Shown here piece by piece: positions 5,347-8,300 of a stretch of 64,000 nucleotides of DNA (position 1 is the stretch's first letter; each line of letters opens with the position of its first letter). The position numbers and the translations under genes are program-made. The DNA lies in assembly GCA_009924135.1 (NCBI GenBank), contig RFSE01000003.1, positions 1-64,000 on the forward strand. Reading direction: 5' to 3'. The notes beneath the pieces are model-generated. The model searched no databases, was not told the DNA's origin, and was given only the letters and a program-made list of their open reading frames with translations. Origin of the DNA: Pseudomonadota bacterium (GTDB taxonomy: Bacteria > Verrucomicrobiota > Verrucomicrobiia > Limisphaerales > SXTU01).

Positions 5347-8300
5347 ATGATTAACCGCCTCATCGAATGGTCCTTGCGGAACCGCTTCCTGGTGGTGTGC
5401 GGCGTGTTCTTCCTCATCGCGTTTGGCACGCGGGCGCTCTTCCGCACGCCGGTGGATGCGATCCCTGATCTCTCGGAGAATCAGGTCATCGTGTTCGCCG
5501 ACTGGGAAGGGCGCTCGCCGCAGGAGGTGGAGGACCAGGTCACGTATCCGCTCTCCGTCGGACTGCAAGGCCTGGCCGGCGTGAAGACCGTGCGGGCCAA
5601 TTCGATGTTCGGTTTCAGCATGTTGACCATCATCTTCGAGGAGAAGGTGGACAACTACTTCGCCCGCACACGCGTGCTCGAACGCTTGAACCTGCTGGCC
5701 GCCCAACTCCCCACCGGCGTCATCCCCCAGCTCGGTCCCGACGCCACCGGCCTCGGCTGGGTCTATCAATATTACCTCCACGTCGACCCGCAGCATGCGC
5801 ACGCAGACCCGCATACGAACTCAAACTCTCAACTCTCAACTCTCAACTCTCAACCTTCCTACGATTTGGGCCAGCTCCGCGCGCTCCAGGACTGGTTCAT
5901 CCGCTACCAGCTCAACGCCGTGCAGGGTGTCGCGGAAGTGGCGAGCATCGGCGGCTTCGTGCGGCAGTATCAGATCGAGGTCAGCTCGCTGAAAATGCGC
6001 GCGCGCAAGGTCACGTTGAAGGACGTGATGGATGCCGTGGCCGCCAGCAACCTGAACGTCGGCGGCAAGGTCATCGAAGAGAACGGCATGGAATTCGTCG
6101 TGCGCGGCCTCGGCCTCGTGAAGTCGCTGTCGGACCTCGAGAACATCGTGTTGATGGAGCGGGGCGGCATTCCGATTTATCTGAAGGACATTGCGACCGT
6201 GCAGATCGGCGGTGACTTCCGTCGCGGCACGCTCGATGTGGACGGACGCGAAGTTGTGGGCGGCATCATCGTGATGCGCAACGGCGAGAACGCACTCGCG
6301 ACGATCAACCGCGTGAAGGAAAAAATCCGCCAGATCCAGCCGAGCCTCCCGCCGGGCGTGACGATCAAGTCCTTCTATGATCGCGCGGAACTCATCGAAC
6401 GCACCATCGACACCCTCAAGCACGCGCTTGCCGAGGAAATCCTGCTCGTCACGCTCGCGCACATCATTTTCCTCTGGCACTTTCGCAGCATCCTCATCGT
6501 CACCGTGCCGTTGCCGCTCTCGATTCTCGTGTCGTTCATCCTCATGGAGAAGTTCGGCATCAGCTCGAACATCATGTCGCTCTCCGGCATCGCCATCGCC
6601 ATCGGCGTGCTCGTGGACGCGGGCATCGTGATGACCGAAAATGTGATTCGACACTGTGAGCGAGCGGAGGAGGAGAAGCGGAGGAAGTATTCAGTAAGCA
6701 GTGTTCAGTCTTCAGTCGCACCGCCGCCGCCGGCACTTGCTGCCGGAGCGCCGGTCTCCGACCCGGCGTTGTCTTCCTCCCTCGCCCCCACCGGGGGAGA
6801 GGGCCGGGGTGAGGGGGCAAACGCCACAGCGTCACAAACCGCTGCCCCTCCACCCGTTGCCCCACTGAACACTGGCTCACTGAAAACTGAACACTCTTCC
6901 ATCCGTCTCACCGCCGAGGAAACCCTCGCCGTCGTCCTCACCTCCGCCCAACAAGTGGGCCGGCCGATCTTCTTCGCGATGGTCATCATCATCCTCGCGT
7001 TTCTGCCGGTGTTTGCCCTGTCCGGTCAGGAGGGCAAGCTGTTCCATCCGCTCGCGTTCACAAAAACCTTCGCGATGATCGGCTCGACGATTCTTGCGGT
7101 GACGATTGTTCCTGCGCTGTGCTCGATTCTCGTGCGTGGCCCGTTCCACTCCGAAGATCGCAACTGGGTCATGCGCGTGCTGCTCGCCATTTACGACCCG
7201 ATTCTTGACCTCGCACTCCGCTGGCGGAAGACCGTGATGGCGGGTGCCGCAGTGCTGCTCGTGTTCGCGTTATTGATCGCCTTCGGCATCCCGCGCCCGG
7301 CGATGCTGTGGCTGGCCCAAAAAACCCTGCCGCACGATGTCTCCCTCGCCCCCACCGGGGGAGAGGGCCGGGATGAGGGGGCAAACGCAACTCATGGAAC
7401 GGGTGCCGCAAACGCAGCCTCCGTTCTCCCTCACCCTAACCCTCTCCCGCTGGGAGAGGGAACAGCGCAAGCCACCGCGTCGAACTCACAAAGCCCACCG
7501 ACCCAAGCCCGCGACGGTGGAAGTTCCCCCCTCTCCCAGCGGGAGAGGGCCGGGGTGAGGGAGAACGGCCCCGGCATTTCAAATAATGCGCCGGTGTCGC
7601 ACGCCCCACTGAACACTGACGCACTGAACACTGAACACTCGCTCGCCTCCTTCACCGAGCGTCACCCGGTCTTCACGAAACTCTTCGCCGGCTTCGGCAA
7701 GGACTTCATGCCCACGTTGAACGAAGGCTCGCTCCTCTTCATGCCCGTGCTGTTACCCAGCACTTCGCTCACCGAGGTGAAACGCGTCATGTCGTGGCAG
7801 GACAGCGTCATCCGCAGCCTGCCGGAAGTGGAGAGCGTCGGCGGCAAGCTGGGCCGCTCCGAGACCGCCACCGATCCCGCGCCCGTCGAGATGATCGAGA
7901 CCACCATCATGCTCAAGCCCGAGTGGCTGCCCACGAACCGCGTTTACTTCGGCTTCCTCAAAATACCCGGCGTCTATCGCAATCCCCAGTGGCGACCCGG
8001 CTCCACCAAGGACACCCTCATCGCTGAGCTGACGGAAAAACTCGCGAATGTGCCCGGCTACGTGCCCGGCTTTTTGCAGCCCATCGAGAACCGCATCCTC
8101 ATGCTCTCCACCGGCATCCGCGCGCAGCTCGGCGTCAAAATTCTCGGTGGCACGCTCGACGAACTGCAACGCAAGGCCTTCGAGGTCGAACGCGTCGTGA
8201 AGGAAGTGCAGGGCGCGGCCGGCGTTGCGCCCAGCCGCGTGCAGGGCAAACCGTATTTGGAAATCGAAGTGAACCGCGTGGCCATGGCGCGCTTTGGTTT

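Follow-up and report, generated by a model that had tools for sequence, protein, structure and literature searches.

The window, a 64,000-nucleotide stretch from a draft Limisphaerales assembly (490 contigs, 6.68 Mb, ~90% complete), contains a cusA gene encoding a heavy-metal efflux pump of the RND family (Table 1). Its product matches the TIGR00914 profile with 1014 bits (cut-off 701), which places it among the heavy-metal RND pumps, and it aligns to the CusA structure 3t51 over three stretches, with homology across both halves. A CusB-like adaptor gene lies upstream. Immediately upstream of cusA is a GxxExxY-family gene (TIGR04256; 4849-5329) that is flanked by 35-nt inverted repeats (4849-4883 and 5295-5329; 80% complementary), and gene and repeats together look like a small inserted cassette. 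The cusA reading frame runs without a stop through three clusters of repeats, as a sequence-only reading of this DNA had claimed, and tandem- and inverted-repeat scans recovered all of the cusA repeats listed in that reading at essentially the same positions.

Table 1. Genes, insert sites and repeats in the window
Feature	Coordinates	Strand	Remarks
cusA, CusA/CzcA-family RND metal efflux pump, 1303 aa	5347..9258	+	Open frame; TIGR00914; CusA structures
Insert site 1, predicted periplasmic loop	5782..5859	+	26 codons vs 10 in insert-free relatives
AACTCTC x4.4 array within site 1	5824-5854		Tandem-repeat scan
Insert site 2, predicted cytoplasmic TM4-TM5 loop	6667..6909	+	81 codons vs 8 in insert-free relatives
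Site 2 heptamer hairpin (TTCAGTR family), 5' arm	6686..6717	+
GC palindrome half GGAGCGCCGGTCTCCGACCCGGCG	6745..6768	+	Inverted pair here in congeners G001, G003 and G005
Dispersed GC palindrome family (CTCCCTCGCCCCCACC...), copy 1	6777..6827	+
Site 2 heptamer hairpin, 3' arm	6863..6896	+	Unit steps 7-8-7; one register stop-free
Insert site 3, predicted loop after TM7	7282..7674	+	131 codons vs 19 in insert-free relatives
Dispersed GC palindrome family, copy 2	7341..7391	+	96% identical to copy 1
Imperfect inverted-repeat element with CCCTCACCC...CCCTCTCCC arms, site 3	7410..7579	.	Family with 219 core matches
Heptamer arm ACTGAAC..., site 3	7603..7640	+	Encodes PLNTDALNTEHS; unit steps 7-8-7
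PSD1/PSCyt2/PSCyt1 protein gene	49490..53044	-	Second gene in the window to carry heptamer inserts in frame
GTTCAAA heptamer array, PSD1 gene site B	52023..52058	-
TTCAGTR heptamer arm, PSD1 gene site A	52544..52568	-
Intergenic TTCAGTR...ACTGAAY hairpin	53066..53164	.	Free-standing form of the element

An alignment of 20 homologous cusA stretches from related genomes, a comparison that the earlier reading had proposed as a check, revealed insert-free forms within the order and defined three insert sites. These are 78, 243 and 393 nt long in the window (sites 1, 2 and 3, all multiples of three), where relatives in the order that lack inserts have 30, 24-27 and 57 nt, and the window pump has 16 + 73 + 112 = 201 more residues than theirs. 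The excess length is thus real and coincides with repeats for these 201 residues, but the ~250 residues claimed before apply when E. coli-type CusA is the reference, and that larger figure includes some lineage-specific sequence without repeats. When the pump is aligned to the crystal structures, site 2 lies between residues 427 and 441 and site 3 between residues 555 and 564, and site 1 corresponds to a gap in the periplasmic domain. From RND-pump topology we take residues 427-441 to be the cytoplasmic loop between TM4 and TM5 and residues 555-564 to follow TM7, and homology to the CusA structures predicts that all three sites are loops.

Site 2 is a composite: its heptamer hairpin, whose inverted arms (6700-6716 and 6879-6895) are 94% complementary, holds GC palindromes within its loop. 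The inverted-repeat element in site 3 has 51-nt arms (7410-7460 and 7529-7579; 84% complementary), and the heptamer arm downstream of it includes a CACTGAA array of 4.6 units (7607-7639). The palindrome family of the site 3 element also occurs as an intergenic inverted pair at 49255-49382, where it is free-standing. Nearly all congeners have repeats at sites 1 and 2, which are therefore old occupied sites; only the large load at site 3 is close to specific for the window genome, part of its content being common to congeners G005 and G007.

The occupants of these sites turn over between species. Site 2 is occupied and open in all 11 of the congeners that cover it, with 11 different lengths of 108 to 267 nt, and its hairpin is of the TTCAGTR, TAATTAG or GTGAGAA kind, both arms always being of one kind; in some congeners the loop contains nested GC palindromes. 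Among nine species, site A of a PSD1 orthologue is filled by six kinds of heptamer, and site B has no insert in five. A tree built from the conserved parts requires 4 changes for the three states at cusA site 2 and 6 changes for the six states at PSD1 site A. Every allele at cusA site 2 and at the PSD1 sites is in frame, with no out-of-frame allele in 11 genomes (these counts treat related genomes as separate and are uncorrected for shared ancestry). For an intergenic hairpin of the window genome taken at random, the chance of being open in a randomly chosen frame is 0.19, and the chance of being open and also of a length divisible by three is ~0.065. Because only ~6.5% of such hairpins would be frame-neutral, whereas every allele is in frame, we conclude that the frame is under selection.

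The sequence-only reading had offered two explanations for the frame-neutral inserts, namely selection for a working protein or removal of the extra RNA before translation. The site 2 alleles in the 11 congeners, all of them stop-free and multiples of three in length, are strong support for selection to keep the frame open. The alternative, in which the inserts are spliced from the RNA like introns or skipped by the ribosome in a byp-like manner to give a pump of normal length, is very unlikely. The inserts of the congeners do form strong hairpins (fold z -2.5 to -11.6) that resemble a requirement for bypassing, but single-arm inserts without a hairpin are present at a similar site (PSD1 site A), and Rfam models at the gathering threshold give no match in the 64-kb window to a group I or II intron or other known RNA element. 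The inserts are always stop-free with lengths of 0 mod 3, and we find no support for splicing or bypass because neither would need the frame to be conserved. An assembly or binning artefact, in which repeats have joined unrelated pieces, is scarcely credible: repeats do break assemblies, and this one is in 490 contigs, but the same sites and repeat families are seen in about ten separately assembled congeners and the flanking conserved blocks are continuous and in frame.

Persistent occupation of the same loops in most congeners, with exchange of the heptamer, exceeds the expectation for simple random insertion. A selected function for the inserts, whether the hairpin regulates pump assembly or mRNA stability or the gene undergoes phase variation as 7-base units are gained and lost, could account for the universal occupation of site 2 and the switching of both arms together with the heptamer, and slippage of a heptamer would indeed shift the frame. 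However, the encoded peptide and the repeat family vary freely, relatives in the order are wholly without inserts, the same repeats are carried by unrelated genes, and the out-of-frame alleles of a phase-variable gene are missing from all 11 genomes; we consider such a function quite improbable.

The feature extends well beyond one gene and is a genome-wide population of repeats of several families that enter many genes. The palindrome core CCCTCACCCNNNCCCTCTCCC has 219 matches in the genome compared with 6 for a reversed-pattern control, and ACTGAACACTGAACAC, an ACTGAAC heptamer pair, has 107 compared with 0. The same control was discarded for ACTCTCA, for which it is meaningless, as the pattern is nearly identical when read backwards. 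A scan of 0.80 Mb, a non-random sample in that many of the stretches were picked around known repeat hits, contains 116 tandem arrays of 7-base units versus 0-25 for each of the other periods, and the 7-base unit is thus far above other periods, as in STRR-like repeats. The unselected parts (the window and the first 120 kb of contig C1) have 9 period-7 arrays versus 0-3 for any other period. The 116 arrays fall into 56 consensus classes, and 63 of them have an inverted partner within 300 bp, versus 5 when the arrays are moved to random places. One array in the window (17713-17743), located between two genes, is of GGGAATG heptamers and is close to the GGGNATC repeats of Xanthomonas and Nostoc.

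The heptamer hairpins have a fixed polarity, 5'-(RGTNNNN)n-loop-(NNNNACY)n-3'. In the window genome (G000) the 5' arm has RGT or AGG and is without ACY or CCT in 55 of the 63 arrays with an inverted partner, and the converse is found in none of the 63. The pattern of the commonest hairpin, TTCAGTRTTCAGT-loop-ACTGAAYACTGAA, has 89 matches (overlapping ones counted) in 58 genomes of the order, and the reverse arrangement has none. This pair of patterns constitutes the independent support for polarity outside the window genome, because few unselected arms are scorable: in unselected stretches of relatives this was so for 2 of 11 arms, the others having both motifs or neither. At loci in other phyla 164 arms have RGT or AGG only and a single arm has ACY or CCT only, these loci having been preselected with the forward pattern.

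Ordinary replication slippage of 7-base units could in principle create heptamer arrays with no mobile element, since heptanucleotides outnumber the other longer simple repeats in most genomes, and the polymerase footprint has been put forward as a basis for slippage (cited in PMC4679880). Slippage alone, however, yields neither inverted partners (the 63 of 116 arrays versus 5 of 116 moved ones) nor a fixed polarity (89 versus 0), and does not exchange one heptamer for another in both arms; as the origin of the arrays it seems unlikely.

As a host for repeats cusA is not special. Using our own simple codon-based gene caller, which gives 85% coding sequence, 58 of the 116 arrays in the 0.80 Mb are inside genes, including genes for two UvrA paralogues, several PSD1/PSCyt2 proteins, a radical-SAM HemN-like protein and an alcohol dehydrogenase. 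Array density is about six times higher between genes than within them, and the genic arrays therefore reflect tolerance rather than preference. The UvrA paralogues (L135:4025-7414 and L130:9545-12610) are in the same genome and each has several in-frame heptamer arrays; a comparison with UvrA of known structure (2r6f) places several of the arrays in gaps that separate conserved blocks.

The open share of the six frames is 0.80 for genic arrays and 0.52 for intergenic ones. A pure tandem ACTGAAC array of at least three units has TGA in every register, and stops are present in all three registers of 114 of the 153 arms that are not read through. The ACTG arms inside genes avoid stops either by an 8-base step (7+8=15, leaving two registers only) or by a change of TGA to TGG or TGC. 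Steps other than 7 are present in 7 of 19 read-through arms versus 12 of the 153 others (Fisher p = 0.0014); read-through arms were defined partly by their openness, and this comparison shows how frames are kept rather than how often insertion is tolerated. Two arms of the 7-8-7 form are in cusA, and the same form is found in a distant genome (L247). Recurrent peptides such as YSVFSVQ...LNTEHS are repeat-derived, and annotators should be warned of them.

The best explanation, with a probability of roughly 0.85, is that cusA has been entered at its loops by tolerated selfish repeats, which are kept only where the frame survives and are translated as spacers. Several small dispersed families (hairpins of 7-base units and GC-rich palindromes) would have inserted at three surface loops, in part one within another, and the inserts would be transcribed and translated as unstructured, polar and presumably neutral peptides such as LNTDALNTEHS. 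Selection on the host gene would remove any insertion, or any later change, that breaks the frame. The repeats would thus behave as tolerated selfish DNA, with hairpins copied around the genome, probably by a process similar to transposition, and settling in permissive loops.

A MITE would combine terminal inverted repeats with a target-site duplication and a parent IS. Inverted arms are present here (63 of 116 arrays have an inverted partner); no exact element ends could be defined, and a non-systematic search identified no target-site duplication for these families. Mobilisation by a RAYT was considered and rejected for the heptamer and GC families, since the sole PF01797 match in the ~90% complete assembly is flanked by GGAGCGCGGCTGTG repeats, and no dedicated transposase for either was identified. 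The repeats that flank this Y1 (REP-type) transposase gene (L151:1081-2600), the only one detected, belong to a separate palindromic family, GGAGCGCGGCTGTGTC...GACACAGCCGCGCTCC.

Several known systems are similar in part. Rickettsia palindromic elements (RPEs) are ~150 bp long, form several families and are in frame within many unrelated genes (Ogata 2000, 2002; PMC10969869), and expression in vivo is documented for proteins that contain RPE-1 (PMC3733652). The repeats described here are of the same functional type, being dispersed in frame in unrelated genes (cusA, PSD1 and UvrA). RPE families, however, are described as having a conserved sequence and peptide, whereas the 7-base arms are variable, their unit is exchanged between sister species, and congeners share no conserved peptide at one site. 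REPs are mostly intergenic, but intragenic examples are known in several species, notably in DNA repair genes including the excinuclease complex (PMC3733652). Our families resemble REP/BIME sequences as hairpin repeats that are partly intragenic, including in UvrA, but REP/BIME-RAYT families, which are defined by a GTAG or CGTC tag at the foot of the hairpin, flank the RAYT of their genome, whereas here the sole Y1 transposase has an unrelated repeat on its flanks.

Heptameric repeats have been described as cyanobacterial STRRs, as TAACTGA in Beggiatoaceae, Cyanobacteria and Bacteroidetes (PMC4679880), and as GGGNATC in Xanthomonas and Nostoc (PMC4692102). They share with ours the 7-base unit, the dispersed tandem arrays of few units and the scatter across phyla, and TAACTGA read on the other strand as AGTTATC fits the RGTNNNN form. 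However, those repeats are described as mostly intergenic and under-represented in genes, with one dominant sequence per study (PMC4679880, PMC4692102), and the BOGUAY heptamers are rarely inverted (one indirect repeat versus 169 direct sets; PMC4679880), whereas here over half are in inverted pairs, many sequences coexist and half are in frame within genes. Bacillus tandem repeats similarly have a constant unit size and a sequence that differs between families and species, but the units are of 20-21 or 52 nt rather than 7, and the passages of PMC8161180 consulted report no inverted arms of fixed polarity. In-frame repeats and heptamer repeats are thus each known, and this cusA would be an especially heavy example of something that small selfish repeats are known to do, although it has been little studied; their combination, the polarity rule and the site-specific turnover look new. 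In the literature searched, which lay outside most subscription journals, we found no description of in-frame gene invasion combined with a sequence-free architecture, polarity and site-specific exchange of units.

In this uncultured lineage selfish repeats would lengthen many conserved and membrane proteins at loops, and they are dense enough that a comparison of sister species lets protein length be seen directly to evolve through repeat insertion. Any copying mechanism is strongly constrained by the fixed polarity, by a unit that holds to 7 bases while its sequence varies, and by the joint exchange of both arms; these features may also connect separate accounts of heptamer repeats from Cyanobacteria, Beggiatoaceae, Xanthomonas and Bacteroidetes. 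We suggest, tentatively, that the heptamer hairpins could be a distinct and so far undescribed class of mobile element that spans phyla and is defined by architecture rather than sequence, with interchangeable four-base cores; a hypothetical enzyme would copy or rewrite whole hairpins, return to the same loops and recode both arms in frame.

The TTCAGTRTTCAGT-loop-ACTGAAYACTGAA hairpin is also present in Planctomycetota, Chloroflexi, Flavobacterium, Gammaproteobacteria and other Verrucomicrobiota. Of 80 such copies, 9 are within open frames that have at least 60 codons on both sides. Very large ORFs in Anaerolineae (L217, L218, L233, L235 and L248) carry the TTCAGTR hairpin in frame with >500 codons on both sides, and some of these appear NRPS-like by eye. 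In Anaerolineae SKW216 (L225:845, reverse strand; L231:953) some arrays pass from units of 7 bases to units of 8, with ACTGTCTC repeated, possibly a change of unit size within the same type of element.
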